From NCBI RefSeq assembly GCF_003207795.1, contig NZ_NIRT01000027.1, forward strand, positions 1-37,252: a stretch of 37,252 nt of DNA, written 5' to 3'. The stretch's first letter is position 1. Each line of letters begins with the position of its first letter. The position numbers and the translations under genes are program-made. Positions 15,426 to 36,632 of the stretch are shown piece by piece. The notes beneath the pieces are model-generated. The model saw nothing but the letters and a program-made list of their open reading frames with translations, was not told the origin of the DNA and did no database searches. Source of the DNA: Komagataeibacter nataicola. GTDB taxonomy: Bacteria; Pseudomonadota; Alphaproteobacteria; Acetobacterales; Acetobacteraceae.

Positions 15426-15692
15426 ATATTATGTCATGATTGCGGAACATAAAAAAATTTATAAGAATTGTATAAAATATGAAAAAATTCCTATTTACGT
15501 ATTCAGATTGCGCCCTGGAAGCCATTTGTCATAAATCCAAAGAGTCCCCATGCCCAACCAGAACTGAAACTTCAGATCTCCTGCCTGGGCAGGATGGCCA
15601 GAACACCCGGGATGTAACGCATCAGGTTATTGCCGACTTTGGCCAATCGGCATTTTGTAAGAATTCCTTCCTACGATATTGACGTTTGATCG

Positions 15693-15709
15693 TATGAACT
15701 CTGTTCATA
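15693..15709. promoter_or_regulatory. Perfect dyad TATGAAC-TCT-GTTCATA
   Basis: A 7-bp inverted repeat with a 3-nt spacer, operator-like in size, lies between the divergent TetR gene and bcsAB2. Its TGAAC/GTTCA core recurs at 15986. Confidence 0.5.
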
Positions 15710-15985
15710 TCAAAAAGGAAATGCGCTGCCAGAAGCGGCCTGCCTGAGACCCCTTGGAAATTTCATAAAAATTAACATTTTCAGACGGCATGACGGCAAA
15801 AAAACACATCATTCATGCCCTGTTATGCTGCAGATCTTTCTTCTTGACAGAACGTTAATCGGAAATTAACACCGTTAATATGTTCAATAAACATCAATTT
15901 TAAGATAGGGATGAACGCATACCGATCAACCACCTGTATTCTTTAATATTTTATTGAATCAGGCGGTAAAATTTTAAGGTTTAAG

Positions 15986-15998
15986 TGAACAATGTTCA
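15986..15998. promoter_or_regulatory. Perfect dyad TGAACA-A-TGTTCA
   Basis: A 6-bp inverted repeat with a 1-nt spacer lies 85 nt before the bcsAB2 start. It shares the TGAAC/GTTCA core with the dyad at 15693, which suggests one dimeric regulator binds both. Confidence 0.5.
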
Positions 15999-16082
15999 TA
16001 TTTAGCACCCTTGTTCCTGCTCGTAATGACGGCTGCGGGAGCAGGGGGCATTCACCATGTTAAGGCAGCGATATAGCTGGAA

Positions 16083-19000
16083 ATGTTCAGGGCAAGACGC
16101 ATAGCGGACAAAGTCACGGACCTGATGAAAAAGACACCGCTCAGCCGGATGCCCCCATGGGTGCCGGTTGCTGTTGGTGCAATCATCATGGGATTTGCGG
16201 GGTCCATAACGCTCAGCCTGTATTCACAGGGTCTGCTATGCGTTGGCACGGTCACGCTCCTGCTGGTGCTAAACCGCAGGCCGGGGCGGGGCATCACCAT
16301 ATTCCTGATGATGCTGTCGCTGCTTGTATCGCTGCGCTACATCGTGTGGCGTCTGACCACCACGCTGGAGTTCCACGGGTGGATACAGGGCGGTCTGTCC
16401 GTGCTGCTCCTGCTGGCCGAGACCTATGCCCTGGTCACGCTGTGCCTGAGTTACTTCCAGATGTCATGGCCGCTGGAGCGCAGGGAGCACGCCCTGCCAG
16501 ATGATCCGGCCGACTGGCCGAGCGTGGATGTCTATGTGCCATCCTATAATGAAGAACTGTCCCTCGTGCGCTCGACAGTTCTTGGCGCGCTGGAACTTGA
16601 CTGGCCGGCTGATAAGCTGAACGTCTATATTCTTGATGATGGCCGACGGGTTGCCTTCCGTGATTTTGCGGTAGAATCTGGTGCAGGTTATATTATCCGC
16701 GCGGAAAATAATCACGCAAAGGCAGGCAATCTCAACCACGCCCTGAAAGTAACAGATGGAAAATTCGCCATCATTTTTGACTGCGATCACGTTCCCACCC
16801 GTGGTTTTCTCAAAAGAACCATCGGCTGGATGATTGCCGACCCCAACCTCGCTCTTTTGCAGACCCCGCATCATTTCTACGCGCCCGACCCGTTCCAGCG
16901 CAACCTCGCCGCAGGCATGCGTGTGCCGCCGGAAGGCAACATGTTCTATGGCCTGGTGCAGGATGGAAATGATTTCTGGGATGCAACGTTTTTCTGTGGC
17001 TCGTGCGCCGTCATCCGCCGCTCCGCCGTTATGGGGATTGGCGGGTTCGCGACCGAGACGGTAACGGAGGATGCGCATACCGCGCTCAAGATGCAGCGCA
17101 AGGGCTGGGGCACCGGCTACCTGCGCGAACCGCTGGCCGGCGGGCTGGCGACCGAGCGCCTGATCCTGCACATCGGCCAGCGCGTGCGCTGGGCGCGCGG
17201 CATGCTCCAGATCATGCGGCTCGACAATCCCATGCTTGGCCCCGGCCTGCGGTGGGAGCAGCGGCTTTGCTACCTGTCGGCCATGTCGCACTTCCTGTTT
17301 GCCATTCCACGCGTGACCTTTCTGGTCTCGCCGCTGGCCTATCTTTTTCTTGGTGAAAACATCATCGCGGCATCGCCGCTGGCCATCAGCGCCTATGCGC
17401 TACCTCATATCTTCCATTCCATCATGACGCTTTCACGCGTTGAAGGCCGGTGGCGCTATTCCTTCTGGAGCGAGATTTACGAAACCTCGCTCGCGCTGTT
17501 CCTGGTGCGGATCACCATCGTAACCCTGCTCCAGCCCCACAAGGGCAAGTTCAACGTAACCGACAAGGGCGGCCTGCTGGAGCGCAGCTATTTCGATTTC
17601 AGCGCGGTCTATCCCAACATCATCCTGGCGCTGATCCTGTTCGCAGCCCTTGCGCGCGGCATATTTGGCATCATCTGGCAATATCACGACCGCCTGGCGC
17701 TCCAGTCCTTCGTGCTCAATACCCTGTGGGTGGTCATTAGCCTCATTATTGTGCTGGCCGCCATCGCCGTGGGGCGTGAAACGCGCCAGACCCGCAGCGC
17801 ACCGCGCATTACCGTGCGCCTGCCCGTAACCGTTACCGATGGGCAGGGCAGGGCGTTCCATGCCCATACGCATGACCTGTCGCTAGGCGGCCTGTCGGTT
17901 GACATGGACTGGCCGCACGATGTCGAAGCGCCCCGGACCGTCATGGTCAGCTATGACAACGAGCGCGACGGCATTCATACGCACGTGCCCGCCCGGGTCA
18001 TGGCCATGCAGCCGGGCAACCTGCGCCTGCAATGGGCGCGCCGGGACCTGAGCGATGAACGCCAGGTGGTCGATATGGTGTTCGGGCGCAACGATGCATG
18101 GGCCAACTGGGCCGATTTCCCCGCCGACCGCCCCCTGCGCAGCATCGCCATGGTGTTCAGAAGTATTGGCGACCTCTTTAAATGGCGCAAGCCTGAAAAA
18201 CCCCGCCCCACTGCGCAGGCAGAGGCAATCACCATGCCCATGGTGGAAGAAAAACTGGAGAAACAGAGCCTCGTGCTGAAACCTGCCCAACGCGGCGCCC
18301 GCAGTGGGGCTGCCCTATCCGCCACCTTCCTCACAGCCTTCACGGCACTGCTCCCGGCAGCTATGGCGCAGGGGCTGCCGCCCGCGTCCGCCACGGTAGA
18401 CCAGAGTGGAATCAGCGCCCAGACTCCGTTTGGTGACAGCAATACAGGCAACGTGCCTGATGTGACGCCGCCAATCGACCCGCTGGCTGCAGCCCGGATC
18501 AGTGATACGGAGGTCACGCGCACCCTGTCGTTCCGTGACCTCGGGGCTACGACCGGCCCGCTGACATTACGCGGCTACTCTCCGCTACAGGGGCTTGATG
18601 TGGTCGTGCCCGCCAACCGGGTGGTAACGCACGCGCAGCTCACCCTGTCTGGCGCGCTCTCGCCGTCGCTGCTGCCTGAGGCGAGCGCTGTCACGGTTAC
18701 GCTGAACGAGCAGTATATCGGCACGATCAAGGTCAACCCTGACCACCCCGCGTTCGGCCCCATCACATTCGATGTCGATCCGCTATATTTTACCGGCGAC
18801 AACAAGCTCAATTTCCGTTTTGCCGGTGAATACAGGCGTGATTGCAATGATCTCTTCAACGAGATCCTGTGGGCGCGTATTTCCGACAGTTCACGCATCA
18901 CCCTGACCACGGTGCGGATCGCGCCCGAGCGCAAGCTCTCGCGTCTGCCTGCGCCCTTCTTCGATCCCAACCTGCGTGCGGCGTTGCGGGTTCCGGTCGT

Positions 19001-20648
19001 CATGCCATCCCCCGATAGCCGCGATGACCTGAAGGCGGCAGGCGTGATTGCTTCATGGTTTGGCAAGATCGCCGATTTCCGCGCGCTGTCCTTTCCCGTT
19101 TCCACAACCGTGCCCGCATCGGGCAACGCGGTTGAAGTGGGCCGGAACATTCCCCTTGATGCCAATGGCACGCTGCCCACCGGCCCGACCCTGGCCGAGA
19201 TCGTCAACCCCAATGACCCGTGGGGCACCATCCTGATCGTGACCGGGCGCACGCCGCAGGAAGTCGAGGCAGCCGCGCGCAACCTCGCGTTCTCGCATGA
19301 TACGCTTGGCGGCGTGGCCTCGAAAGTGGTGGAGGACGTGAGCCTTGCCCCCCGCCAGCCTTATGACGCACCCGCCTTCGTGCCAACGGACCGGCCCGTG
19401 CGCTTCGGTGAGCTTGTAGGGGCGGCCGACCTGCAGGGCGGGGGCTACACGCCCGCGGGCATGACCCTGCCATTCCACCTGCCGCCCGACCTGTATACAT
19501 GGCGGGGGCGGCCTTACCTCATGAACATGTGGGTGCGCGCGCCGGGCGGCCCGGTGGTGGACCTCGAGACATCACGCGTCGATGTCAGCCTCAACAACAA
19601 CTACCTGCAGAGCTATTCGCTCTCGCCGCCGGGCGTGTGGCAGAAATGGTCGGAAAGGCTGGTCAACCAGCATGCGGGCGCCACGGGTCACATGACGGCG
19701 CTGCCGCCGTGGCTACTGTTTGGCCAGAACCAGCTCCAGTTCAATTTTGATGCCCGGCCGATTGACCGGGGCGCATGCCGCCGCACGCCGGGTGATATCC
19801 GCATGAGCGTGGATTCAGATTCCACCCTCGACTTCCGCCGGGGCTACCATTACGCCGAACTGCCCAACCTGTCCTATTTCGCCGAGGCCGCCTTTCCGTT
19901 CTCCCGCATGGCCGATCTGTCCGAGACAACGATCATCCTGCCGCAAGGCCCGGATGCGGGTACGGCAGGCTCTTTCCTCGACCTCATGGGCTTTTTCGGG
20001 GCGACAACGTGGTACCCGGCGGCAGGCGTGCATGTCATGACGGCGGACCAGGTGAAGAATACCCCTCCACAGGGCGATATCATCCTGCTCTCCACCGCCG
20101 ACAGGCTGAATGGGCAATCAGACCTGCTGTCACGCTCGCCTTACGTGATCAGGGACGGGCACGTGCGGGTTGGCCAGAGCATGGGGCTGCAGGGCATCTG
20201 GTACCTGTTTCAGGACCACGACCACGCCGGCCTCCTCAACGGTGTGACCGCTCACCTCAATGCGCCGATTGCCGAGGCCGGGGTCATGATCGGCGCGCAG
20301 TCGCCCTATGACAGCCACCGCTCGGTCATCGCCTTTGTGGGAGATACGCCGCAGCGCATCCATGATCTGGTGCTCAGCCTGCGCAATACCAGGGATCTGT
20401 CTTCCATCCAGGGGGACCTGGTGCTCAAGAACGCCGAACAGTTTACCAGTTACCGCACCGCGCCGACCTATAAAGTGGGCTCATTACCCCTGTGGCTGCA
20501 ACTGGACCGGTATCTGAGTTATCATCCTTTCATTCTTTATCTGACCGGTCTATCAGGAGCGGGGTTGACCGCCTTCGGGGCGTGGAGCTGGCTGCGCGCC
20601 AAATCACGCAGGCGCGTGCTGGATGATAACAGGACCGGTGAGGCGTGA
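16083..20648 (+). CDS. bcsAB2: Fused cellulose synthase BcsAB (type II operon)
   Basis: This 1521-aa fusion joins the catalytic BcsA and periplasmic BcsB parts. BcsA has membrane helices, then glycosyltransferase family 2 motifs: DD185-186, D233-x-D235, T328-E-D and Q366-x-x-R-W370. A PilZ domain follows with R571-x3-R575 and D598-L-S-L-G-G, the c-di-GMP site that switches the enzyme on. A hydrophobic linker at about residues 740-765 (ending LLPAAMAQ) leads into the BcsB part, which ends in a membrane helix and a basic tail. It polymerises UDP-glucose and pushes the glucan across the inner membrane. Ribosome-binding support for the ATG at 16083 is weak, and the ATG at 16125 is an alternative. 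The fused form is known from Komagataeibacter. Confidence 0.95.
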   Translation: MFRARRIADKVTDLMKKTPLSRMPPWVPVAVGAIIMGFAGSITLSLYSQGLLCVGTVTLLLVLNRRPGRGITIFLMMLSLLVSLRYIVWRLTTTLEFHGWIQGGLSVLLLLAETYALVTLCLSYFQMSWPLERREHALPDDPADWPSVDVYVPSYNEELSLVRSTVLGALELDWPADKLNVYILDDGRRVAFRDFAVESGAGYIIRAENNHAKAGNLNHALKVTDGKFAIIFDCDHVPTRGFLKRTIGWMIADPNLALLQTPHHFYAPDPFQRNLAAGMRVPPEGNMFYGLVQDGNDFWDATFFCGSCAVIRRSAVMGIGGFATETVTEDAHTALKMQRKGWGTGYLREPLAGGLATERLILHIGQRVRWARGMLQIMRLDNPMLGPGLRWEQRLCYLSAMSHFLFAIPRVTFLVSPLAYLFLGENIIAASPLAISAYALPHIFHSIMTLSRVEGRWRYSFWSEIYETSLALFLVRITIVTLLQPHKGKFNVTDKGGLLERSYFDFSAVYPNIILALILFAALARGIFGIIWQYHDRLALQSFVLNTLWVVISLIIVLAAIAVGRETRQTRSAPRITVRLPVTVTDGQGRAFHAHTHDLSLGGLSVDMDWPHDVEAPRTVMVSYDNERDGIHTHVPARVMAMQPGNLRLQWARRDLSDERQVVDMVFGRNDAWANWADFPADRPLRSIAMVFRSIGDLFKWRKPEKPRPTAQAEAITMPMVEEKLEKQSLVLKPAQRGARSGAALSATFLTAFTALLPAAMAQGLPPASATVDQSGISAQTPFGDSNTGNVPDVTPPIDPLAAARISDTEVTRTLSFRDLGATTGPLTLRGYSPLQGLDVVVPANRVVTHAQLTLSGALSPSLLPEASAVTVTLNEQYIGTIKVNPDHPAFGPITFDVDPLYFTGDNKLNFRFAGEYRRDCNDLFNEILWARISDSSRITLTTVRIAPERKLSRLPAPFFDPNLRAALRVPVVMPSPDSRDDLKAAGVIASWFGKIADFRALSFPVSTTVPASGNAVEVGRNIPLDANGTLPTGPTLAEIVNPNDPWGTILIVTGRTPQEVEAAARNLAFSHDTLGGVASKVVEDVSLAPRQPYDAPAFVPTDRPVRFGELVGAADLQGGGYTPAGMTLPFHLPPDLYTWRGRPYLMNMWVRAPGGPVVDLETSRVDVSLNNNYLQSYSLSPPGVWQKWSERLVNQHAGATGHMTALPPWLLFGQNQLQFNFDARPIDRGACRRTPGDIRMSVDSDSTLDFRRGYHYAELPNLSYFAEAAFPFSRMADLSETTIILPQGPDAGTAGSFLDLMGFFGATTWYPAAGVHVMTADQVKNTPPQGDIILLSTADRLNGQSDLLSRSPYVIRDGHVRVGQSMGLQGIWYLFQDHDHAGLLNGVTAHLNAPIAEAGVMIGAQSPYDSHRSVIAFVGDTPQRIHDLVLSLRNTRDLSSIQGDLVLKNAEQFTSYRTAPTYKVGSLPLWLQLDRYLSYHPFILYLTGLSGAGLTAFGAWSWLRAKSRRRVLDDNRTGEA

Positions 20649-20766
20649 GGCACAACAACGCCCCCGCCATGCAGGCCAAATCACGACAGGGTGTGGCCAG
20701 TCTGGACGGGCATGCCTGTAGCGCCACCCTGGCCCATAAATAAATTCTTATACGGAGAAGTAATTC

Positions 20767-21438
20767 ATGAGTGCTCTTCTTGCCGGACTCACGCTGCTGA
20801 TTATCGGTGACAGTCACGTCACGTTCAAGGACTCCCTGCTGTCCGTGCTGCCGGATGAATTCAGTCGTCAGGGTGCAAAAGTGGTCACCTACGGGGTCTG
20901 CTCCTCCACCGCGGCCGACTGGGTCGTGCCCAACCCCAACAATGGTTGCGGCGCCGCCGAGCGCATTGGTGATGCCCCGATTGGCGCGCCCAACATGAAG
21001 CCCGCATCGCCCCCGCCCATCAGCGACCTCGTGGCCAAGTGGCATCCCAACGTGGTAATGGTGATTCTTGGCGATACTATGGCAGCCTATGGCCAGGCCG
21101 CTGTCTCGAAGGACTGGGTGGACGAGCAGGTCAAGACCCTGACCTATGCCATTGGCAAGACCGCGTGCATCTGGGTGGGGCCGACCTGGGGCCAGTTCAG
21201 CCCGCGCTATGGCAAGACCGACCAGCGCGCAACCGAAATGGCCAGCTTCCTCAAGGGTGAAGTGGCGCCGTGCAGCTATGTCGATGGCACCGCGCTGCTC
21301 AAACAGGGCAGCGTGAACACCATCGATGGCATTCATGCAACGCCTGAAAGCTACAAGGTATGGGGCAATGCGATCGTGCAGGCGACGCTGCCTGAACTGG
21401 AAAAGCTGAAAGACGCCCCGCCTGCTACCGACCAGTAA
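20767..21438 (+). CDS. bcsX: BcsX, SGNH-fold protein of cellulose operon
   Basis: This 223-aa protein has Ser16 in LIIGDSH (residues 12-17) and D187-x-x-H190 (DGIH). Block II glycine is in TYGVCSST. Block III reads VILGDTMAAY, without the usual Gly-x-Asn-Asp, so the oxyanion Asn is not evident. GDSH plus DxxH is the form seen in SGNH halves of OafA/OatA-type acyltransferases. The Ser lies so near the N-terminus that the hydrophobic start is probably the first beta strand and not a cleavable signal. A GGAGAAG site precedes the ATG. It precedes bcsY, and the two may together acylate cellulose. The gene name follows the known Komagataeibacter type II operon. Confidence 0.88.
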   Translation: MSALLAGLTLLIIGDSHVTFKDSLLSVLPDEFSRQGAKVVTYGVCSSTAADWVVPNPNNGCGAAERIGDAPIGAPNMKPASPPPISDLVAKWHPNVVMVILGDTMAAYGQAAVSKDWVDEQVKTLTYAIGKTACIWVGPTWGQFSPRYGKTDQRATEMASFLKGEVAPCSYVDGTALLKQGSVNTIDGIHATPESYKVWGNAIVQATLPELEKLKDAPPATDQ

Positions 21439-21476
21439 GGTTGCCCCTGACGGGCACAAGACGTGGAAATCTGTTG

Positions 21477-22637
21477 ATGCTGCACCAAAATGAACCTGCC
21501 CCCACCACAAGCAGGTGGCGTGAAATACTTGAGAAAGATTTTTTTCCCCTTAACCGTCGGCGCGATATTGATGGGCTGCGTGGCCTGGCCATTGCCCTTG
21601 TGGTCCTGTTCCATGCGGGCTGGCTGCAGGGGGGCTTTATCGGCGTCGATATTTTTGTGGTGATCTCGGGCTATTTCATGGGGCGCTCGGCGCTCATGCA
21701 GCATCCGTTCCAGCCCCTGCGCTTTGTCTGCCGCAGGCTCTACCGCCTGCTGCCCGCGCTGGTCTGCATGATCGGCCTGGTCTCGGCGGGCATGCTGTGG
21801 TGGGTCCTGCAGAGTGACCGGGCCGATATTGCCATCAACGGGGCGTATGCCCTGGTGTACCTGTCCAACATATGGGCCTCGGGGCATGTCGGGTATTTTC
21901 AGGGGCAGAGCATTGCCTACCCGTTCCTGCATACATGGTCGCTCTCGCTGGAAATGCAGTTCTACACCATCATTTTCCTGATGGCGCTGCTGCTGCCGCT
22001 GACAAAACACCGCAAGCTGGTGCTCTCGGGCATCTTTACCGTGTCACTGGCCTATTGCGCGTGGAGCTACGTCGAGGGCGATACGCAGGCTTATTACAAT
22101 ATATTCGATCGCCTGTGGCAGTTTTCACTTGGCACCATGATCTGGATATGTCCCCGGCCACGCCTTTCGCCGGTTGTTGCCAACATCATCTACGCCGCAG
22201 CACTGACGGTGATCGTGGGGGCGGGGCTGTTCTATACCCTTCAGTTTGCCTGCCCGTCCTACATGACCATTTTCCCCTGCCTCGCGGTGGCCACCATCAT
22301 CATGCTGCCCGAAACGCACGTGGGCAGACTGTGCCTTGTGCCCATTTCACCGCTCGGGGTCATTTCTTACTCGGTCTATCTGTGGCACTGGCCCGGTATC
22401 GTGGTGGCGAATTATCTGTTCTTCTTCCAGGTGCACGGGTTGATGATGGCTGCCGTGCTGGGCATCGTGCTTGTCATCAGCGTGTTGAGCTACGTGTTTG
22501 TGGAGCGCACCGGGCTTGATTATGAGGACAGGGTTGCCGTTTGCGCCCGCAACCGTGGCGCGGCCCTTCTTATCGGTACCTGCATGATTCTGGCTGCGAT
22601 CCTGTTCTATATCTCTTACGTGTCCCGTGTTCATTAG
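21477..22637 (+). CDS. bcsY: BcsY, acyltransferase-3 family membrane protein
   Basis: This 386-aa protein has about ten membrane segments. The N-terminal part carries the acyltransferase-3 landmarks: DIDGLRGLA, then LFHAG with the presumed catalytic His, GGFIGVDIFVVISGYF and a basic RRLYRLLPAL segment. Such proteins move acyl groups from cytoplasmic acyl-CoA to extracytoplasmic sugars. In this operon the likely acceptor is cellulose, as proposed for Komagataeibacter BcsY. The ATG at 21477 follows GTGGAA and is preferred over an in-frame TTG at 21441, which starts 2 nt after the bcsX stop. The C-terminus ends with one more helix and a short tail. Confidence 0.88.
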   Translation: MLHQNEPAPTTSRWREILEKDFFPLNRRRDIDGLRGLAIALVVLFHAGWLQGGFIGVDIFVVISGYFMGRSALMQHPFQPLRFVCRRLYRLLPALVCMIGLVSAGMLWWVLQSDRADIAINGAYALVYLSNIWASGHVGYFQGQSIAYPFLHTWSLSLEMQFYTIIFLMALLLPLTKHRKLVLSGIFTVSLAYCAWSYVEGDTQAYYNIFDRLWQFSLGTMIWICPRPRLSPVVANIIYAAALTVIVGAGLFYTLQFACPSYMTIFPCLAVATIIMLPETHVGRLCLVPISPLGVISYSVYLWHWPGIVVANYLFFFQVHGLMMAAVLGIVLVISVLSYVFVERTGLDYEDRVAVCARNRGAALLIGTCMILAAILFYISYVSRVH

Positions 22638-22660
22638 ACACGACATAAAAGGACGATACC

Positions 22661-22723
22661 ATGCCGCCACCGCGCTGCCTTCGGGGCGTGGGTGGCGGCG
22701 TACGCCTGCGGCCTGGGTCATGA
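22661..22723 (+). CDS. Possible 20-aa leader ORF coupled to bcsC2
   Basis: An ATG with the best ribosome-binding site of this junction (AAAGGA at 22647-22652, spacing 8) opens a 20-codon frame that differs from bcsC2. Its TGA (22721-22723) overlaps the bcsC2 ATG at 22720 as ATGA. The peptide is Gly/Arg/Pro-rich and has no signal-like features. A translational-coupling role is likelier than a function of the peptide itself. Confidence 0.35.
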   Translation: MPPPRCLRGVGGGVRLRPGS

Positions 22724-25700
22724 CGCCCCAGCCCATGCGGTCGGCAAATGGCACGCTGAAGCTCATCTGCGGCATGATGGCGGGCGTCATCCTGTCGGGT
22801 GAGGTGGCGCATGCGCAGACTGACCCCGCTCAGGTCACGCAAAACGGCCTGACAGCAACTGACGGCACAGCCATCACGGTCACGCCCACGCAGGAGCAGG
22901 ATGCCGAACGCGCGGCCATGAACGCGCACCTGGCACATGCAGCCGCCGTGCTCGAACTCCTGCTCAACCAGGGCTATTACTGGCTGGGGCAGCATAACCT
23001 CAATAAAGCGCATGAAACGATAGAACGCGCGATTTCGCTTGATCCCGACAACCCTGAAGCACTTTACCTTCAGGGCCGCCTGCAGATGGCGCAGGGCAAC
23101 CCGGCGCAGGCCTCGGCCACACTGGCCCGGCTGGTCCACAATGGCACGGCGCCGGGGCTGGTTACCGACCTCAAGGCGCAGATACAGGCCGGCCCCGTGG
23201 ACCCAAAGGCCCTAGCCGAGGCGCGCGCTCTGGCGGCGGCAGGCAAGATGATGCCCGCCATGTTCAAGTACAAGGCCCTGTTCAAGCACGGCGACCCGCC
23301 ACCCGATCTGGCGCTGGAATATTACCGCGTGCTGGGGGCCACCATCCTTGGCCGCCAGGAGGCCCAGACCAAACTGACCGCCTGGGTGCAGCGCAACCCG
23401 CGCGATCTTGATGCCCGGCTGTTGCTCGACCGGATCCTGACCTACCGCGTTACGTCGCGCCCCGAAGGGATGGACGGCCTGCGCGCGCTCGCCCGCTCCA
23501 GTGCGCCAGCTTCCATCAGGGCAGGGGCCGTTGCCGCATGGCGCGAGGCGCTGCTGTGGGAGCCGATTACTGGCCCCACCATTCCGCTCTATAACGAATG
23601 GCTTGGCCTGCACCCCGATGATGCGGAAGTAACCGAACTGCTGCACAAGGCGCAGGAAACGCAGAACGCCATCGACGCCGCAACCGCCCACCAGGAGGGC
23701 TATGCCCTGCTGGCCCGGCACAACCTGGAAGGGGCGTCCGAACGCTTTCAGCACGCCCTCGCACTCAATGCCCATGATGCGGATGCGCTTGGCGGACTGG
23801 GGCTGGTGGCGCAGGCCCGGCAGCAGCCTGCCCAGGCCACGCAGTATTTTTTGCAGGCCATGCAGGCTGACCCGGATTCAGCGCCCCACTGGCGGGCTGC
23901 CATCAAGGCGCTGCAATCTGGCGGGGGCGGGGGCATGGACCCGCTGGTGGTGCGCATCCTCCAGGCCATCAATACTGGCCATTACGAAGCCGCCCGCACG
24001 GATCTTGCCCTGCTCGGCCGCCGTTCGGGCAATGGGCTGACCTACCTGTCGCTGGACGGCATGCTTGAGCGCAGGCAGGGGCATAACGCGGAAGCCGAGC
24101 GCATCTACCGCCAGATTCTAAGCCGGGCGCCGGACAATGCCGATGCGCTGTTCAATCTGGGCGCCATCCTGATCCAGACCGGGCGCGGGGCGGAAGCACA
24201 GGAGATCATCGCCCGCCTCAGGCCGCTGCGCCCGGCGCTGGCCGTGCACCTGCAGGCCGCCGATCTTTCCGCCCGCGCCGAGCAGACGCGCGATGCTGAT
24301 GAACGGGTGGCCCTGCTGCGTCAGGCCGTAACCCTCGACCCCACGGACCCGTGGATCCGTCTCAAGCTCGCCCATGCGCTTGACGATGCCGGCGGCCATT
24401 TTCAGGCCCAAAGCCTGATGGACGACCTGACAAACGCAGCATCCGTCACGCCAGATGACCTGCAGGCCGGGATCATCTACGCCATGGGGCAGCATGACCT
24501 GACCACGGCCGAGCGCCTGATGGCGCGCCTGCCTGCAACCGGGCGGAGCGCTGGCATGGCCAGTATTGCCGGCCAGATCGAGCTTGCCCGCCGCATCCAG
24601 GCGCTCAACCGCGCGCCGCGCGCGGACAATGCCGCGCTCGTGGCCCTTGCCGACCAGCCCGACCCCACGGGCGACCGGGGCATGCAGATTGCTGGCGCCC
24701 TGCTTGACCGCCATGCCACGCGCGAGGCCCAGCAGGTGCTCGTACAGGAAGAGCGCCTGACCCAGCCGCCCAAGGCTGCGCAGATGCTGGCCTATGCCGG
24801 GATGTACCTGCGCCTGCATGCCATGTTCGACACCACGCGCTGCCTTGGCACCTTTGATGAGATGGCACGCGCCTACCCCGGCTACGCCACGGCGGAACAG
24901 ATACGGATAAGAAACGATATCGCCATCGGCATTGCCATCATGACCGCCGATAACTTTGACCGTTATGGCCAGACCACGCAGGCCTATCAGGTCATGGCCC
25001 CCGTGCTGCGCGCCCACCCTGAATCAGCCGAGGCCCATCTGGCCATGGGCCGGATATACCAGACACGCAACATGCCCCGGCGCGCACTGGAAGAAGACCA
25101 GATTGCCCTGCGCCTCAAGCCGCGCAATATCTACGCTCTCGCCGCCGCCGCGCGTGACGCGGGCGGTACAGGCAGGGTGGATCTGGCGCGGAGCTATGCC
25201 GGCCGCCTTGTGCATGAAGACCCCGATGGCCCGATGACATGGGAAGTGCGCTCCGATGTCGATCGCGTGGCGGGCAACACGCGTGTCCAGCTTGCCGATG
25301 TGGAGCACGCGCGTAGCGCCCAGCGCACGCTGGATGGTGAAGGCGCGTATGAAGGCCATGAAAGTTTCCTGCCGGATTATCGCTGGCCGTTCATTGACAG
25401 CAATTATATCGATCTGCAGGGTGCGACACTGCCTGCAAGCTATCATTACATCCCCGAGGATGATGGCGCCGAGGCGATGGACCGGCAGATTGTCTACCTG
25501 CGTGATTCCATCTCGCCACAGCTCGACGCCAACAGCTTCGTGCGTAGCCGCACGGGTGTTGCGGGGCTGGGGCAGCTGACGGAATTCGCCATTCCCATAA
25601 CCGGCACGCTGCCGTTTGAATCATGGGAGCACCGGCTGTCCTTTTCGGTCACACCCACGCTGCTGTTTACCGGCGACCCGCTGAAAAATGCCTATTCAGC

Positions 25701-26589
25701 CCAGCAGTTCGGCACCTATTCCGTCAATGGGGCCCGGCCGGGGGCTTACCATCATTACTATACGCAGGGCGTGGGGCTGAGCCTGAACTATGTCAACCAC
25801 TGGTTCTCGGCCGATGTGGGGTCTTCACCGCTGGGCTTTCCCATCACCAACGTGGTGGGCGGGGTGGAATTCGCGCCGCGCCTGACCCGTAACCTCGGCC
25901 TGCGCATAAGCGGGGGCCGGCGCATGGTGACGGATAGCGAACTGTCCTACGCGGGCGAGCACGATCCCGGCACGAACCGGGTCTGGGGTGGTGTTACGCG
26001 CATGTTCGGCCATGGCGCGCTGGAATGGTCCGCGCCGGGGTGGAATGTTTATGGCGGTGGCGGGTTCGCCTATCTGGATGGCACGCATGTACAGGGCAAT
26101 ACCGAGGTCGAGGCCGGGGCAGGCGGCACCGCCACGGTATGGCAGACCCACGACCGGCAGTGGTTGCGTGTCGGGCTGGACCTCATGTATTTTGGTTACA
26201 GACGTAACAGTTACTTCTTTACATGGGGGCAGGGCGGCTACTTCTCACCACAGCAGTATTACGGCGCAATGGTGCCGGTTGAGTGGTCGGGGCATCAACA
26301 GCGATGGACGTGGTTCTTGCGCGGGGAGGCGGGGTTCCAGCATTATCACAGCAATGGAGCGCCCTATTACCCGACGAATGCCAGCCTGCGGCAGCTCGCG
26401 GCCCAGACCCCGTACGACTATTATGGAAGCGAGGACGCCAGCGGCCTTGCGGGCAACGTACGCGGGCGGCTGGTGTACCAGTTTACCCATCGGTTGCGCG
26501 TTGGCATGGAAGCTGGCTACAGCAGGGCAGGCAACTGGTCAGAAACCAGTGGCATGTGGATGGTACATTACACATTTGACGATCAATAA
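22720..26589 (+). CDS. bcsC2: Cellulose export outer-membrane protein BcsC (type II)
   Basis: The start at ATG 22720 gives a normal export signal (basic start, LICGMMAGVILSG, cleavage after AHA). The in-frame GTG at 22627 would lie inside bcsY. Of 1289 aa, roughly residues 60-870 are TPR repeats (for example AISLDPDNPEALYLQGRLQM) that form the periplasmic scaffold. The last about 400 residues are the outer-membrane barrel, ending in aromatic beta strands (MWMVHYTFDD). BcsC guides the glucan from BcsB to the surface. The GC-rich coding is uniform throughout. The ATG lacks a good ribosome-binding site of its own and may depend on coupling to the 20-codon leader ORF. Confidence 0.93.
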   Translation: MTPQPMRSANGTLKLICGMMAGVILSGEVAHAQTDPAQVTQNGLTATDGTAITVTPTQEQDAERAAMNAHLAHAAAVLELLLNQGYYWLGQHNLNKAHETIERAISLDPDNPEALYLQGRLQMAQGNPAQASATLARLVHNGTAPGLVTDLKAQIQAGPVDPKALAEARALAAAGKMMPAMFKYKALFKHGDPPPDLALEYYRVLGATILGRQEAQTKLTAWVQRNPRDLDARLLLDRILTYRVTSRPEGMDGLRALARSSAPASIRAGAVAAWREALLWEPITGPTIPLYNEWLGLHPDDAEVTELLHKAQETQNAIDAATAHQEGYALLARHNLEGASERFQHALALNAHDADALGGLGLVAQARQQPAQATQYFLQAMQADPDSAPHWRAAIKALQSGGGGGMDPLVVRILQAINTGHYEAARTDLALLGRRSGNGLTYLSLDGMLERRQGHNAEAERIYRQILSRAPDNADALFNLGAILIQTGRGAEAQEIIARLRPLRPALAVHLQAADLSARAEQTRDADERVALLRQAVTLDPTDPWIRLKLAHALDDAGGHFQAQSLMDDLTNAASVTPDDLQAGIIYAMGQHDLTTAERLMARLPATGRSAGMASIAGQIELARRIQALNRAPRADNAALVALADQPDPTGDRGMQIAGALLDRHATREAQQVLVQEERLTQPPKAAQMLAYAGMYLRLHAMFDTTRCLGTFDEMARAYPGYATAEQIRIRNDIAIGIAIMTADNFDRYGQTTQAYQVMAPVLRAHPESAEAHLAMGRIYQTRNMPRRALEEDQIALRLKPRNIYALAAAARDAGGTGRVDLARSYAGRLVHEDPDGPMTWEVRSDVDRVAGNTRVQLADVEHARSAQRTLDGEGAYEGHESFLPDYRWPFIDSNYIDLQGATLPASYHYIPEDDGAEAMDRQIVYLRDSISPQLDANSFVRSRTGVAGLGQLTEFAIPITGTLPFESWEHRLSFSVTPTLLFTGDPLKNAYSAQQFGTYSVNGARPGAYHHYYTQGVGLSLNYVNHWFSADVGSSPLGFPITNVVGGVEFAPRLTRNLGLRISGGRRMVTDSELSYAGEHDPGTNRVWGGVTRMFGHGALEWSAPGWNVYGGGGFAYLDGTHVQGNTEVEAGAGGTATVWQTHDRQWLRVGLDLMYFGYRRNSYFFTWGQGGYFSPQQYYGAMVPVEWSGHQQRWTWFLRGEAGFQHYHSNGAPYYPTNASLRQLAAQTPYDYYGSEDASGLAGNVRGRLVYQFTHRLRVGMEAGYSRAGNWSETSGMWMVHYTFDDQ

Positions 26590-26646
26590 TACAATCGGTC
26601 CGGGGCAGGTTCATGCCCTGCGCCCCCTATCCAGGAACAGTATTGC

Positions 26647-28326
26647 ATGGAAACGCGCGGAAGAGTTCTAGCCTGCATCACGGCCATGGCCGTTGGCAGC
26701 CTGCCCGCCCTTGGCATGGCGGCACAATGCCCACCAGATGACCATAAGGGGGGAGAAACCTGCATTCCCGCCAATAGCGCCGTAGATCAGGGGCTGAACC
26801 GCCCGCCCGGCACGGATGACGACGTGAGCAGGGGTTACGCGCCAGGCGACCTGTGGCAGGCAGGCGGGCGTGTATGGCGTGCCACCTCGGTCACGCCAGG
26901 GGGCGCGCAGTGGGCCGCCGTGTCCACATCGAACGCTCCCGCCGATACCTTTGGCGCGCATGCCGTTTTTGCCGGTGGGCCTACACGGATGGTCAGCTCC
27001 TATTCCGGCCCTGCCGTGGATATCGAGACGACGGCCGGCGGCCAGACGGTAGCCACCACGCTCATCATACGGCCCGATGGCACGCTCGATACCGAGACCC
27101 TCCATCGCGTTCTGGCCGCGCGTGACGCAGGCACCTTCGCCACCGTTACCCGCGTGTATGACCAGACCGGCCATGGCAACCACCTCGTGGCAACGCCGGG
27201 GCACCATGTCGTGCATATCGGCGCGGTGCAGGTTTCGGGGCAGGAGACGCTGTCATGGGGCGAGAATAACGGGCCGGGCGGATTTGTCCTGCCACAGACG
27301 CTCAGGGTGCCCGCCAACAGCTTCTTTTTTGGCACCACGGGCACGTATGCCTCATCCAATTCCGGCTATTCGGCTTTTCCCGTGCCGCTCATGCTGGGGC
27401 AGAAGGGGCAGGAATTCAAGGTGTTCATGGGCAGCTACACGCTCGATGGCTTTGTGCATGTAGCCGACATGCGCAGCCCGGACCAGCGCACGGACCTCAT
27501 CATCAGCAACGATCCTGCCGCCTTTGGCATTAGCGCAACACCCAATGGCTACCGGCTTGAAAACGGCAATAACCACGCCATGCTTGGCGGCGCACTGCCC
27601 GCGAGTTCGTTTTCCGGTGGGTATATCGGCTATAATGCCGATGGCGGGTCGTGGTTTGAGCAGGGGCGCAATACCGGGCAGTGGACCGGTATCGTCATAG
27701 CCGACCAGGACGCCACGGCCGAGCAGGAGCAGGACTTTGAGGCCGCCGCCGCCGTGGCGGGCGACCACATGCCGCAACTGCGCGATACTGTCGTTGCCAT
27801 TGGCGATAGCCGGACGGAAGGCTACGGCCTGAGCGATGGCACGAACTGGCCCTATGTCATGCAGCGTTACGCACGCTACAAAAGCTACAATTTTGCCGTA
27901 TCAGGTGCCACGACCAAGCAGATGCTGGACATGGTGCCTGCGGCGGAAGCGCTGGCAGGCCATCCCGGCCGCAAGGTGGCGGTTGTGTTTGGCGGCTTCA
28001 ATGACCACCTGCACCATATCGGCACCGGCGAGACGGTCCATAACCTCGGGCATATCACCAGCCGCCTGAAAAAGGCTGGCTATCACGTTGCTTTCATCGA
28101 TGAGGCCAATACGCAGGGCGCGCCGCGCAAGGCACTGACCAACGCGGTCGAGGATGGAAAGATCACTGCCGATACCGAACTCGATCTTTTCTCATCCGGC
28201 GAGCCCCTTGCCGATGTGCTTGACCAGACAAAATGGCTGGCCGATACGACCCACCCCAACCAGGCCGGGCATGACATCATCGCCCGCAACGTGTGGGAGA
28301 ATATTGCCGATTTCTTTAAAAAATAA
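26647..28326 (+). CDS. Exported SGNH hydrolase with N-terminal sugar-binding-like domain
   Basis: This 559-aa protein lies 57 nt after bcsC2 and before the operon terminator. An export signal (LACITAMAVGSLPALGMAA) is followed by a beta-rich region with VYDQTGHGNHLV, the pattern of GH54 arabinofuranosidase-like and LamG-like domains. The C-terminal 180 residues form a complete SGNH esterase set: Ser388 in IGDSRTEG, Gly and Asn452 in GGFND, and D533-x-x-H536 in DTTHPN. It probably acts in the periplasm or outside as a deacylase or acyltransferase on a polysaccharide, perhaps the cellulose made by this operon. Substrate and GH activity are not shown. No standard bcs gene name fits. Confidence 0.8.
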   Translation: METRGRVLACITAMAVGSLPALGMAAQCPPDDHKGGETCIPANSAVDQGLNRPPGTDDDVSRGYAPGDLWQAGGRVWRATSVTPGGAQWAAVSTSNAPADTFGAHAVFAGGPTRMVSSYSGPAVDIETTAGGQTVATTLIIRPDGTLDTETLHRVLAARDAGTFATVTRVYDQTGHGNHLVATPGHHVVHIGAVQVSGQETLSWGENNGPGGFVLPQTLRVPANSFFFGTTGTYASSNSGYSAFPVPLMLGQKGQEFKVFMGSYTLDGFVHVADMRSPDQRTDLIISNDPAAFGISATPNGYRLENGNNHAMLGGALPASSFSGGYIGYNADGGSWFEQGRNTGQWTGIVIADQDATAEQEQDFEAAAAVAGDHMPQLRDTVVAIGDSRTEGYGLSDGTNWPYVMQRYARYKSYNFAVSGATTKQMLDMVPAAEALAGHPGRKVAVVFGGFNDHLHHIGTGETVHNLGHITSRLKKAGYHVAFIDEANTQGAPRKALTNAVEDGKITADTELDLFSSGEPLADVLDQTKWLADTTHPNQAGHDIIARNVWENIADFFKK

Positions 28327-28360
28327 GGGCGCGACCCGCCTGCAGGAAGCCGTTTTCCGG

Positions 28361-28394
28361 TGCCGCCTTTCATGCTGAAAGGCGGCATTTTTTA
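28361..28394 (+). terminator. Strong terminator closing the cellulose operon
   Basis: A perfect 11-bp stem TGCCGCCTTTC/GAAAGGCGGCA (28361-28371 and 28377-28387) with loop ATGCT is followed by six T residues. It lies 34 nt after the SGNH gene, so the five bcs-linked genes can form one transcript. The next 200 nt hold no supported gene. Confidence 0.9.
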
Positions 28395-28595
28395 TAAAGG
28401 GCGGGGCCATCAGGATGGCATGCCATAATTTCATAAATGTTCCATAAAACGACGCGCCATATGGTGATATGCCCACCGACACCACAAGGGCTGCCACGCT
28501 CCACACGCGTGCGCCGCTGCCTTGATTGATCGCAGCCTGATCGTATTGTACTGGCACTGGTCGCTTATCCGCCCGCTTTTCAGGACAGGAATTTG

Positions 28596-29903
28596 GTGCA
28601 ATCTTTGGAAATGATGAACCGGTTTGGCTGGGGCATACGGGGCACGCAAACATTATCGGACAGGCCGCATGACTGGCTGGCCCGCCAGTTGCACGAGCCC
28701 GACGCGGCCCGCTTTACCGGCGTGGGCACCACGGCCGATGGGCTGATCGCGCTGCATACGCAGCGTATGAACAGGGTGCAGGGCGATCCGCTTGTCAAAC
28801 CGATCTTTCAGGCCGAGGTTGCAACCCAGCTCGACAACCTGCTTCTGACCCGCCAGCCTTTTCGCGAGCGGCTGGCCTGGTTCTGGTTCAACCACTTTAC
28901 CGTCAGCCTGCGGCAGGGCGGCACGCGCGCGATCATTGGCGCCTACATGCGCGAAGCCATACGGCCGCATGTCACCGGCCGGTTCGTGGACATGCTGGTT
29001 GCCGTCATGCGCCATCCGGCCATGCTGATGTATCTTGATAACGCCTCATCCATCGGGCCGGACAGCCCGGCCGGGCGCAGGGGGCACCGGGGCCTCAACG
29101 AAAACCTGGCGCGGGAATGCCTCGAACTTCATACCCTCTCGCCACAGGGCGGCTACACGCAGGCCGATGTCACGGCCTTTGCCGCCATCCTGACCGGGTG
29201 GGGCGTGGACCTCAAGGCGGACCAGCCCGGTTTTGTCTTTCGGGAAAAAGCGCATGAGCCCGGTACCAAGACCCTGATGGGCCACCGCTTTGGGGAAGGA
29301 GAGGAAGGCGGCCTGCAGGCGCTGCATTTTCTGGGCACGCACCCCGCCACCTACCACCATATCGCCACCCGGATGGTTGCCCATTTCATAACCGACACGC
29401 CCGACGCGCGCGATGTCACGCAGGTCAGCCGCGTGTTGCAGGAAACAGGAGGCAACCTTGCCGCTGCCGCCCTGGTGCTGCCCACGCTGGTCAATACCAC
29501 CCCGGAGGGCGGCAAATTCCGCTCGCCCATGGATTATGCCACGGCGGTGATGCGCGCGCTGTCGATGGGGGGCACACCAAGCCAGCCGGATGATCCACAC
29601 TCGCCCGCGCATACGCTGCTTGCAGCCTTTGCCGCGCTGGGCCAGCCGTTATGGACCGCACCACTGCCCAATGGCTGGAGCGACCGCGCCGCTGACTGGG
29701 CAGCGCCAGCCGACATGCTGGCCCGCAGCGACTGGGCCTGGCAGATGGCCGGGCAGGTGCGCGATGGCGACCCGCTGGATATTGCCCATGCCGTGCTCGG
29801 CCCCGCACTCCGGGCACAGACGGTAACGGCCATGCAGCATGCAGGCTCAAGGCAGGATGCGCTGACGCTCCTGTTCTCCTCCCCCGAATTCCAGAGGCGT
29901 TAA
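28596..29903 (+). CDS. DUF1800 family protein
   Basis: This protein of about 435 aa has the DUF1800 landmarks: an N-terminal NRFGWGIRG, then RERLAWFWFNHFTVS, GLNENLARECLELHTLS followed by GGYTQADVTAFA, and a late LFSSPEFQRR. The start is uncertain: GTG at 28596 follows AGGA by 5 nt and is preferred, while ATG 28611 is the alternative. No export signal is evident in this form. DUF1800 genes are widely paired with DUF1501 genes, and here the partner starts 4 nt after the stop. The biochemical role is not established, and any link to cellulose is positional only. Confidence 0.85.
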   Translation: MQSLEMMNRFGWGIRGTQTLSDRPHDWLARQLHEPDAARFTGVGTTADGLIALHTQRMNRVQGDPLVKPIFQAEVATQLDNLLLTRQPFRERLAWFWFNHFTVSLRQGGTRAIIGAYMREAIRPHVTGRFVDMLVAVMRHPAMLMYLDNASSIGPDSPAGRRGHRGLNENLARECLELHTLSPQGGYTQADVTAFAAILTGWGVDLKADQPGFVFREKAHEPGTKTLMGHRFGEGEEGGLQALHFLGTHPATYHHIATRMVAHFITDTPDARDVTQVSRVLQETGGNLAAAALVLPTLVNTTPEGGKFRSPMDYATAVMRALSMGGTPSQPDDPHSPAHTLLAAFAALGQPLWTAPLPNGWSDRAADWAAPADMLARSDWAWQMAGQVRDGDPLDIAHAVLGPALRAQTVTAMQHAGSRQDALTLLFSSPEFQRR

Positions 29904-29906
29904 ATC

Positions 29907-31118
29907 ATGTTGATCCGTCGTCGCGCGGCCCTGCTGGGTCTTGCCACAAGCTGGGCGCTGGGGCGTGCCTCGCTGGCCATGGCAGCCCCGTCCGGCCATG
30001 AAGATGACCCACGCCTTGTGGTCATTGTCATGCGTGGGGCGCTTGATGGCATGTCCGCCGTCACCCCTTATGGCGACCCGAGCCTTGCCACCCATCGCCG
30101 CGCGCTCATCCTGCCAGAGCCGGGAGCGGCCAAGGGGCTGCTTGATTTAGGCGGTTTTTACGGGCTGCACCCCGCGCTGCAGAACATGCATGCGCTTTAT
30201 GCCGCGGGGCAATTGCTGCCGGTGCATGCCGTGGCGGGCAATTATCGCAGCCGCTCGCATTTCGAGGCGCAGGACTACCTTGAAAGTGGCGCGGATGCCC
30301 GCATGGATAGCGGCTGGCTCAACCGGGCCGTATCGCTCATGCCCCAGCGCGATGCGGGGCCGGATGGCTATGGCCTGGCCATGGGGCTGACCGTGCCGCT
30401 GCTGTTGCGTGGCCCGGCCCAGGTGGGCAGTTACGCGCCCGCCGCCAGCCATCACCCCGACCCCGATCTGTACCGCCAGATCGCAGCCCTCAACGCGGAT
30501 GATCCGGTCACAGGCCCCGCCCTGCGCAATGCCCTGCAGGCGCGTGGCTTCTCCGATACCGTGATGGAAGACGGCAGGCCCGCCTCCGCCGCCCCGCGCA
30601 AGGGCAGCAGGCCCGATGCGTTCCTCACCCTTTCAACCGCAGCAGGCCGCATGCTGGCCAACCGGCGCGGCCCGCGCGTCGCCGCCCTCGAAATTGGGGG
30701 GTGGGATACCCATGCAAGGCAGGTCGACCGCCTTGGCCGCCCCCTGACCCAGCTCGACCGGGGGCTGGCGGCCCTGCGTGATGGCCTTGGCCCGGCATGG
30801 TCGCGCACGGTGGTGCTGGCCATGACCGAATTCGGCCGCACGGTACGCATCAACGGCACGGGCGGCACGGATCATGGCACGGGCACGGTTGCCTTCATTG
30901 CAGGTGGCGCCGTGGCAGGGGGGCGGGTAGCAGGCACATGGCCGGGCCTGCGCCCTGAGCAGCTATTTGAAAACCGCGACCTTGCCCCCACCACCGACCT
31001 GCGCTGCGTTGCGGCGGGGCTGCTATGCGATCACCTGCGGCTGAAGCCTGCGGGCATGGCCACGGTCTTTCCCGGTACGGCAGTTACGCCGATGCATGGA
31101 CTGATCCGTCAGGCGTGA
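29907..31118 (+). CDS. DUF1501 family protein, Tat-type signal
   Basis: This 403-aa protein starts 4 nt after the DUF1800 stop. The N-terminus LIRRRAALLGLATSWALGRA followed by SLAMAA is a twin-arginine-type export signal. The body has LVVIVMRGALDGMSAVTPYGD, then AGNYRSRSHFEAQDYLESG, a late GGWDTHARQ and MTEFGRTVRINGTGGTDHGTG, which are features of DUF1501 (alkaline phosphatase/sulfatase-like fold, metal-binding His and Asp). It probably acts in the periplasm with its partner. Substrate unknown. Confidence 0.87.
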   Translation: MLIRRRAALLGLATSWALGRASLAMAAPSGHEDDPRLVVIVMRGALDGMSAVTPYGDPSLATHRRALILPEPGAAKGLLDLGGFYGLHPALQNMHALYAAGQLLPVHAVAGNYRSRSHFEAQDYLESGADARMDSGWLNRAVSLMPQRDAGPDGYGLAMGLTVPLLLRGPAQVGSYAPAASHHPDPDLYRQIAALNADDPVTGPALRNALQARGFSDTVMEDGRPASAAPRKGSRPDAFLTLSTAAGRMLANRRGPRVAALEIGGWDTHARQVDRLGRPLTQLDRGLAALRDGLGPAWSRTVVLAMTEFGRTVRINGTGGTDHGTGTVAFIAGGAVAGGRVAGTWPGLRPEQLFENRDLAPTTDLRCVAAGLLCDHLRLKPAGMATVFPGTAVTPMHGLIRQA

Positions 31119-34211: not shown

Positions 34212-34265
34212 GGTTCGCTCGCGCAAGGATGAAGCTGAAGAAGGGGGCCGGAGGGAATAAACACA

Positions 34266-36632
34266 TCAGAAATTGGCGGAAAGCGTCGCCATCACCACAA
34301 AAGGCGCACCGATGACATAGGTCGGGGCAGAAGACTTGCCGCCCACACCCGCTGCTGCTGTCGCGTTGGTGGTGTAGGAATACATTGAAGAAAGGTAATG
34401 CTCGTTGCCAAGGTTGGTCAGGTTGATCTTGAGGCGGGGCTTGACCCGGCCAACCTGGGGCAGGGTGCGGCCAAAACCAAGATTGGCCGTGACGTAGCTG
34501 GGAATGCTTTGATCGTTCATGAGGGTGGCATACTGTGAGTCGGTATACTGCAAGGTGAAATTGCCGAACCATTTGCCATCAGTATAGGTCAGGCCCAGCG
34601 AACCGGAAAATTTGGGGGCACCGACTTCCTGCTTGCCCTTTGTCTGCAGGTAACCGCCGCCATAGGCAATATTGTTGCCGTTCTGGGTGTACATATACTG
34701 CCCCGAGGCATAGAAACTCACATGGTGCCAGGGGCGGGTCGCGAGTTCGGCCTGCAGCCCCCAGGCCTCAAGCCCGCCTGCGTTGATGACCTGCGAGATT
34801 TCGGTCGTGGTGCCTGGCTGGTAAGTTTCCGATGATATCTGATGGTTCGTTACATTGTAATGAAACCCCGCAACATTGGCCATGAACAGGCCACTGTAGC
34901 GATAACCCAGTTCCTCGGTAATCATGTATTCCGGCTTGTACTGGCTCATGGCCATCTGTAGTGGCTTGCCGGTTGTATAGCTGTATTGGGGCAGCTGTGA
35001 ACTCAACGAGGCAGGCAGATGGTAGCCCGTGGTGCCATTGACATAGATCTGGTGGTCCGGGTTGAAGCGATAGCTGATCAGCACCTGCGGGGCGGGAATG
35101 AACAGGTTACGGATGGAAGGCGCCGTGCTGACCCCCGGCAGGTCCTGCGTGAACTGGCGGCTGACCATCGCCATGCGGATGCCGCCATCAATGGACAGGC
35201 GGTCATGTAAAAACGACAGTTTATCGTCAACGGCAAAGCTGTTGAGCTGCTGCTTGCCGTTTTCATTGTCTTCACCGATGGGAATGCCGCCATTTGCGGT
35301 CAGGTAAGGCTCGGAAGTGCTCCACTGCCCCTTAGTGTTAACGGGATAATAGCGGTCGCGCGCGCCTTCAGTTGCGTATGAATACCAATAAGAGAAAGTG
35401 AGGGTATTGAATTTATGGTGCCATTTGCCAACCAGCGTCAGGCCTGATGATATTGTGTACCAATCCGAGACCTCGGCGGCTGTCAGTTTCTTGCTTGTCG
35501 GGTCATAACCGGGCAGGTTCTTGTAATTGTCAAGGTATTTATATTTTTCGGATCCAACATAACCGCTGGATACGGGAAGGTTGCTTTCACCGTATTCATA
35601 CGGACCATGGAATTCAACCGAGTAGGCCTCGGCATCAAGGCTGAGGCCATGACCAAAACTGAAATGATTTTTCAGCGCGCCATATATCGAACCCGTATTT
35701 TTTCCATCCAGCCCTTCATAATGCGTGTCACCATTATAATACTGGTTGTTCAGCCCATAATTGATACCATAGGTCTGCCAGTTTGCCATGGAGGGATAGA
35801 GCCACTCATTCTGCCTGGCCTGGGTCCAGCCAAATATGGCTTCCGTTTCATTGCCTTTTGACCATGTCTTGACCAGGGCCGCATCAACATGCCATTTGCG
35901 CACCTCGCCTGTGCCCCGCCACATGTCGCTGCGCGCATAAGACCCCGAAACAAAGGCCCGCACGCCAGAATGGCCGATTTCACCCGTGTCATAGCGGATG
36001 AAGTCCTTGTTGGTGCCATAAGACCCGCCCGATGCGGAAGTATAGATGTTCTGCTTTGCGGAGGGACGCCTGATGGATGTTGAAATTTCAGCGCCCGTGG
36101 CATTGTAGGTGGGCGAATTGATATCAACCGCGCCCTGCATCACATTGATCTGCCCCATGTTCTCGCTATCAACAAGCGAGGGGGTATAGGTACTGTAAGT
36201 AAAGGGGTTGGCGCCCGGAATGCCCTCGAACGTAACGCCGATCTCGGACTGGCCCATGCCGCGGATATGGATGGTGGAGAAGGATGTCGTCAACGGACCT
36301 TCACTGGCCGAGACAACACCGGGCAACGTCTAGATAAGGGATTCAATCGTGGAAGTAGGCGACTGCATGTCGATATAGTCATGCGTGAGCGAGCTGACCG
36401 TCTTGGGCGTGGTGTGATAGGCCATCATGCCGCCGCCAGCCTCTTTGTGCCGGGCGTGCACGGCAATTTTTTCTCCTTCCTCCCGTGTCTTGTCGCGATG
36501 GGAGTCTGGTTCGGCATGGTTGGTTTTTTTTGCGCCACCGTGGCGGTTATCGGTTTTTTCTTTGGCAAATGCGCTTGTGTTCTGGACAAAAAAACAGACA
36601 GCACTCAGAAGTAAAACTTTTCTCATTGCCAT
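34266..36632 (-). pseudogene. TonB-dependent receptor interrupted by an in-frame amber codon
   Basis: The frame runs from ATG 36632 (signal MRKVLLLSAVCFFVQNTSAFA, GGAA about 8 nt upstream) to 34266 as 788 codons, but codon 101 is TAG (36330-36332). The sequence reads TSTIESLI-amber-TLPGVVSASEGP, exactly at the plug-domain start, where receptors have an L-x-Q-T-L-P-G-V pattern. The expected codon there is CAG, one transition away. Downstream, IHIRGMGQSEIGVTFEG and the barrel to the terminal Phe are intact and well conserved. Receptors of this class import siderophores or other large ligands. The C-terminal part is not a functional ORF alone. Confidence 0.8.

Follow-up and report, generated by a model that had tools for sequence, protein, structure and literature searches.

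What does the gene that follows bcsC2 in the second cellulose operon (bcsII) of Komagataeibacter nataicola do? We addressed this question in a 37,252-nucleotide window (contig NZ_NIRT01000027.1 of assembly GCF_003207795.1), in which an intact open reading frame for a 559-residue protein occupies positions 26647–28326 of the + strand, behind bcsAB2, bcsX, bcsY, and bcsC2. Putatively responsible for an acylated cellulose, the bcsII operon is carried by the main industrial cellulose producers and is poorly understood. An earlier sequence-only reading of the window had proposed the gene as a fifth member of the operon, encoding an exported SGNH hydrolase. The gene itself is not new, which counts against the novelty of that proposal: it was published in 2022 as bcsZ of bcsII in K. 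xylinus E25 (Szymczak et al., 2022; PMC9318390), and the bcs operon drawn for K. sucrofermentans likewise includes an SGNH/GDSL hydrolase (PMC12412545). Two further publications continue to present the operon with no such gene (PMC13068021; PMC9705422). This bcsZ is distinct from the GH8 cellulase BcsZ, and its product has no GH8 match in Pfam at E-values up to 1. We assign a probability of about one in two to the reading that the fifth protein is an exported polysaccharide esterase that removes acyl groups from the bcsII polymer. Its kinship to phage tail enzymes appears to have gone unnoticed before, as we found no earlier paper on a cellulose operon–phage kinship in the open-licence PMC literature.

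The catalytic residues expected of such an enzyme are present. The SGNH hydrolase domain (residues 378–558; 27778–28320, + strand) was identified by Pfam, predicted fold, and alignment: the Pfam GDSL/SGNH match at residues 384–544 scores 58.6 bits against a cut-off of 32.9 (E 1.5e-15), and the domain has a TesA-like fold (TM-score 0.79 by target length). S388, G420, N452, D533, and H536 are identical in all 26 aligned rows, 20 from operons and six of phage type. This alignment used 19 of 23 named loci and six of nine viral loci, leaving out near-duplicates (L081, L083, L104, L107), a cut copy (L088), a broken copy (L100), and a short match (L111). The catalytic set proposed by the sequence-only reading thus stands for S388, N452, D533, and H536, but its oxyanion glycine, G450, does not. 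Although G450 is likewise identical in the 26 rows, comparison with Gly435 and Asn467 of E25 BcsZ, whose full set is Ser403, Gly435, Asn467, Asp550, and His553 (PMC9318390), assigns this role to G420.

Three further elements precede the SGNH domain on the + strand. Residues 1–26 (26647–26724) resemble a signal peptide by eye, and one is predicted for the E25 homologue (PMC9318390); after it come C28 and C39, found in 20 of 20 and 17 of 20 operon rows, respectively. A small module with conserved D..GY..G.LW and A.W motifs (residues 52–92; 26800–26922) is shared with phage tail-type proteins. Residues 95–376 (26929–27774) are predicted to form a GH54-fold jelly roll, so that an earlier hint of GH54 in the N-terminal region has become a full-domain fold match. 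The VYDQTGHGNHL pattern marks real GH54 similarity (PDB profile search, E 3.7e-5). The fold matches that of GH54 alpha-L-arabinofuranosidase B (1WD3), with a Pfam ArabFuran-catal score of 17.0 bits (E 0.0034), under the family cut-off of 25 bits, and a local profile alignment to 1WD3 that ends after ~70 residues. Unlike 1WD3, the window protein has its jelly roll fused to an SGNH domain, and candidates for a nucleophile and an acid/base come only from hand alignment of strands. In that alignment E221 of 1WD3, which we take to be the catalytic Glu and for which an E221Q structure entry exists, lies near D274/M275, and D297, presumably the acid/base Asp, lies near D332, which is Asp in 17 of 20 operon rows and one of six phage-type rows.

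Relative to the E25 account, which gives BcsZ a signal peptide, an unknown part at 41–191, and a lectin-like middle at 192–382 (PMC9318390), we see no difference in kind: the position after bcsCII, the C-terminal SGNH set, the signal peptide, and the jelly-roll middle are the same. We add that the middle and about half of the "unknown" N-terminal part form one predicted GH54-fold domain, that the protein has phage kin, and that its distribution is wider.

Gene order strongly supports operon membership. The gene lacks internal stops in 15 of 18 other genomes of the genus (the G016 copy is cut by a contig end), with remnants in G010 and no match in G002 or G013; the gene immediately follows bcsC2 in all 14 testable copies, the fifteenth being at a contig end. 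G002, G013, and G010 nevertheless keep matches to bcsAB2, bcsX, bcsY, and bcsC2. A scan of 23 named loci in Komagataeibacter, Novacetimonas, Gluconacetobacter, Acetobacter syzygii, A. okinawensis, and A. orientalis, which overlap in species with the genus and family genome sets, placed bcsC2 just upstream in 22 and bcsX and bcsY as well in 21, the exceptions (L086 and L088) being contig ends. Spacing from bcsC2 is 6–88 nt across 21 measured loci in four genera, two of which (L096, L099) have an earlier in-frame start ~10 nt past bcsC2; the 57-nt spacing reported for the window is correct. In a family set of 397 Acetobacteraceae genomes, 14 of them from the genus, we found 20 with an operon-type copy (E 7.2e-192 or better), and every one of these also has a BcsX of at least 76% identity. 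As the sequence-only reading had anticipated, then, the gene adjoins bcsC2 in most relatives and co-occurs with bcsX and bcsY. BcsX of at least 75% identity occurs in 25 of the 397 genomes, of which G002, G013, G182, and G264 give no match to the gene and G010 has the remnants. No operon-type copy was found in 17 further genomes of the set with BcsX at 34–52%; one of these, G028, has a chromosomal copy away from bcs genes and had itself contributed a row to the search profile. Because the genomes share ancestry, these counts are of non-independent events.

Several irregular loci turned up in these searches. In G002 and G013 the bcsAB2 match is in two pieces (L029:1-3949; L030:13836-18001), as if the operon were decaying, with the pieces ~1.2 kb apart in G002 and a possible frame change in G013. 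The fifth gene of Acetobacter okinawensis JCM 25146 (L100:9932-11549) has a broken frame, and that of strain DsW_060 (L094) is intact. In G006:C26 (L034), a partial bcsC2 and the fifth gene share a 4,053-base contig in a genome with no BcsX match; L086, from K. oboediens LMG 18849, is apparently that contig again, and either the assembly has a gap here or bcsX is truly lost. In L067:11122-13146, L087:14382-16520, and L033:17004-17999, the gene is followed downstream by a BcsAB-type match, a rearranged order that resembles the description of K. saccharivorans in PMC9318390. One match (L025) was discarded, as its translation (L031) shows an unrelated chance match.

A single five-gene transcript is plausible from the signals found along the operon. 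An intrinsic-terminator-like hairpin of 14 pairs with a T-rich tail (28359–28389, + strand; site scan and fold z –2.31) follows the fifth gene, bearing out the earlier placement of the first strong terminator there, at 28361. It has by far the most pairs of 21 terminator-like sites (11.4 expected by chance), the others on the + strand having six or fewer, and by eye a similar hairpin lies 3′ of the gene in five of six nearest relatives (L002, L003, L005, L006, and L007; not L004). The gap between bcsC2 and the fifth gene (26589–26647) had been expected to hold neither terminator nor promoter. There is no terminator-like site in it (fold z of 26580–26660, –0.09), but one weak sigma-70-like match, ATTACA-17-TACAAT (9/12; 26567–26595, + strand), straddles the boundary between bcsC2 and the gap; it is one of nine promoter-like sites in 15500–29500, against an expectation of 5.1 (sd 2.4). 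Judged by eye, all six nearest relatives retain its second hexamer, with one base differing in L003 and L007, whereas L008 and more distant copies do not.

The nearest relatives of the protein outside the operon are phage tail-type proteins. The sole match at E 1e-3 in 50,697 phage records was PhiAX1_610 of Acetobacter phage phiAX1 (L027:11752-13536; LC644973 40358-42142), which has a Pfam GDSL/SGNH domain and is 29% identical over residues 51–559 of the window protein (E 1e-43). Its annotation as a KilA-N DNA-binding protein looks wrong, as no KilA-N match appeared at E up to 1. The phage is one of six induced temperate phages and is predicted to be incomplete (PMC8566455). In IMG/VR, a search with the phage-type alignment found nine loci, one of them a short match, and a search with the operon alignment found none. 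No bcs match was found in the fetched stretches of 12 distant Acetobacteraceae loci (L028, L069–L079) or in the viral loci. We ran PHROGs on 30 proteins picked from the phage-type and distant loci, leaving L076 out of the neighbor scan. Portal, major head, and minor tail proteins lie beside the cassette gene of L071; L073 gave portal and major head proteins, L070 a minor tail protein, L072 a tail collar, L074 a tail assembly protein, L079 a tail-spike-like protein, and L078 an endolysin. L109 and L108 are not independent of these loci: the former is apparently the L073 contig, and the latter apparently encodes the L070 protein, with an identical start of sequence. Among the genes scanned, L075 has no clear virion neighbor, and L028, L069, and L077 have ordinary chromosomal neighbors, which counts against a phage origin. 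Near the end of phiAX1 (L027:21585-21986) is a gene annotated as encoding a GGDEF-containing protein; cyclic di-GMP activates cellulose synthase, and a link to host cellulose is conceivable.

PhiAX1_610 and its prophage relatives share with the fifth protein the same three-part cassette and the same SGNH residues, and the cassette is homologous to virion tail-type proteins. Unlike operon copies, the phage-type proteins have no signal peptide by eye and no C28/C39 in six rows, bearing instead an N-terminal region or a tail-fibre-like extension; conversely, the window protein differs from a phage tail protein in its signal-like N-terminus (by eye) and in its neighbors, which are bcs genes and a DUF1800/DUF1501 pair. 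The restriction of C28/C39 to operon rows, in a loose N-terminal alignment, would be expected if the operon copy adapted to export. In the tree, the 20 operon rows group together in a single clade (100/100), whose sister group comprises nine phage-type rows (100/99); the label "phage" that L077 bears in this tree is wrong, given its chromosomal neighbors. Without the long branches L077, L110, and L074, support is 100/99 for the operon rows and 96/92 for the phage-type rows. Quick trees of the GH54-like and SGNH parts gave the same groups, with weak phage-type support (57) in the GH54-like tree, and the cassette therefore seems to have travelled as a unit. As the operon and phage-type rows are each one clade, the tree fits transfer from phage to host or the reverse.

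We suggest, tentatively and as something rather doubtful, that the fifth gene is a domesticated Acetobacteraceae phage tail enzyme that lost its virion-attachment part and gained a signal peptide and the cysteine pair. On this suggestion domestication would have been a single event that predates the split among the operon copies of Komagataeibacter, Novacetimonas, Gluconacetobacter, and Acetobacter, and a phage cassette that recognizes and deacylates the host's acylated polysaccharide would have become a polymer-editing enzyme. If so, one would predict that the bcsII polymer serves as a receptor for cassette-bearing phages and that the host, by secreting its own copy, could remove it. That the cassette is shared hints at recognition of this polymer by phages of acetic acid bacteria, which would link a biotechnological polysaccharide to phage host range.

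How might an exported esterase act in this operon? In the scheme that we favor, BcsAB2 and BcsC2 would make and export a glucan, BcsY (AT3 family) would move acyl groups over the inner membrane, probably with BcsX as its SGNH partner, the GH54-fold jelly roll of the fifth protein would hold the exported polymer, and its SGNH domain would strip acyl groups and so set the final acylation level, with consequences for polymer packing or cell attachment. Gene order, predicted domain folds, and conserved SGNH residues come from our analysis and the signal peptide from PMC9318390; we infer the substrate, that the reaction is a hydrolysis and not a transfer, and that the jelly roll binds the polymer instead of acting as a glycosidase. 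Kinship to phage tail-type proteins was counted for the esterase reading, as tail fibres with SGNH domains from phage G7C and from two Klebsiella prophages show esterase or deacetylase activity (PMC13123978). The extracellular acyl editing put forward by the sequence-only reading would fit these features; the predicted deacylase opens a direct test of bcsII polymer acylation.

Against the sequence-only reading, five of 25 genomes with a close BcsX have no intact copy of the fifth gene, so acylation machinery does not always include it. Several points weigh against the esterase assignment. Published reports found no acetyl groups in K. hansenii ATCC 53582 by Fourier-transform infrared spectroscopy (PMC10106347) or in K. 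sucrofermentans by Raman spectroscopy (PMC12412545). ATCC 53582 is described as one of the strains in which bcsZ is absent (PMC9318390), and the missing acetyl groups there are therefore not the work of bcsZ; an active deacylase could explain the K. sucrofermentans result but not that in ATCC 53582, and both results would follow from weak bcsII output or from a complete lack of acylation. An SGNH protein encoded in a polysaccharide operon can also be a transferase, as WssI is (PMC10302187); recombinant BcsZ was not in the soluble fraction (PMC9318390); and we found no activity data for the fifth protein in the literature searched. RNA sequencing of K. xylinus E25 showed that ethanol lowers bcsZ and raises the majority of bcsII genes, bcsX and bcsY responding in the opposite sense to bcsZ (PMC9318390), which is not a fair test of one transcript because an insertion sequence element interrupts bcsCII in that strain (PMC9318390).

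The fifth protein could instead be a terminal acyltransferase, its exported SGNH domain putting BcsY-presented acyl groups on the glucan, as in a split AT3–SGNH fusion of the OafB/OatA kind. BcsY gives a Pfam match to AT3 and none to SGNH. Stand-alone AT3 proteins may work with a partner yet to be identified, and OafB needs its SGNH triad (PMC9833829). By description, WssI/AlgJ-type proteins are likewise SGNH proteins of polysaccharide-acylation systems, and WssI, in contrast to a deacylase, moves acetyl to cello-oligomers (PMC10302187). We nonetheless hold this role to be unlikely. G002 and G013, which lack the gene, and G010, which has only remnants of it, still show matches to bcsX, bcsY, and bcsC2, a pattern that fits an editing step better than a transferase step, and two more close-BcsX genomes lack a match to the gene. 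Deletion of bcsY altered fibres and stiffness in ATCC 53582 (PMC10106347), and BcsY thus matters without the fifth gene; BcsX is also the more conserved protein (75–100% versus 57–97%; PMC9318390), and both the complete Gly/Asn oxyanion set and the kinship to phage proteins are in keeping with a hydrolase. On the strength of its complete SGNH residues and dispensable distribution, we favor an exported deacylase over a transferase.

Close to a proposal in PMC9318390 is the idea that the protein is mainly an adhesin that uses its jelly roll to grip cellulose and so tether cells to the fibre, with SGNH activity secondary. The predicted fold and the tie between the operon and polymer–cell attachment (PMC9318390) speak for it, and yet a pure adhesin would not need catalytic residues that are identical across operon and phage-type rows, which makes it quite improbable. 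Still harder to credit is a separately transcribed surface-polysaccharide esterase with no tie to bcsII, acting perhaps on another exopolysaccharide or in masking a phage receptor. The promoter-like match at the gap, the opposite regulation in E25, and the phage kinship would suit such an enzyme, but the gene order and short gaps kept over four genera, the confinement of operon-type copies to close-BcsX genomes among the 397, and the absence, by eye, of the promoter-like match beyond the nearest relatives all argue against it.

The rest of the operon agrees with its earlier description as five + strand reading frames of a cellulose operon. bcsAB2 (16083–20648) encodes fused cellulose synthase catalytic and BcsB subunits (Pfam BcsB, PilZ, and GT2; NCBIfam CelA). 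bcsX (20767–21438) encodes a small protein with no Pfam match at E up to 1, which we call SGNH-like on the basis of PMC9318390 and of its position, flanked by bcsAB2 and bcsY. bcsY (21441–22637) encodes a membrane acyltransferase of the AT3 family (Pfam Acyl_transf_3, E 1.4e-24); its listed start is TTG, and an ATG further in is possible. bcsC2 (22627–26589), whose start overlaps the end of bcsY, encodes a tetratricopeptide-repeat protein with an outer-membrane barrel (Pfam BCSC_C, E 2.3e-77). A search of the window's own genome with the fifth gene returned only the gene itself. Beyond the terminator-like hairpin, the next genes are the DUF1800 and DUF1501 pair (28593–31118, + strand), followed on the minus strand (31716–36326) by a phosphoesterase with phospholipase C C-terminal domains beside a TonB-dependent receptor barrel.

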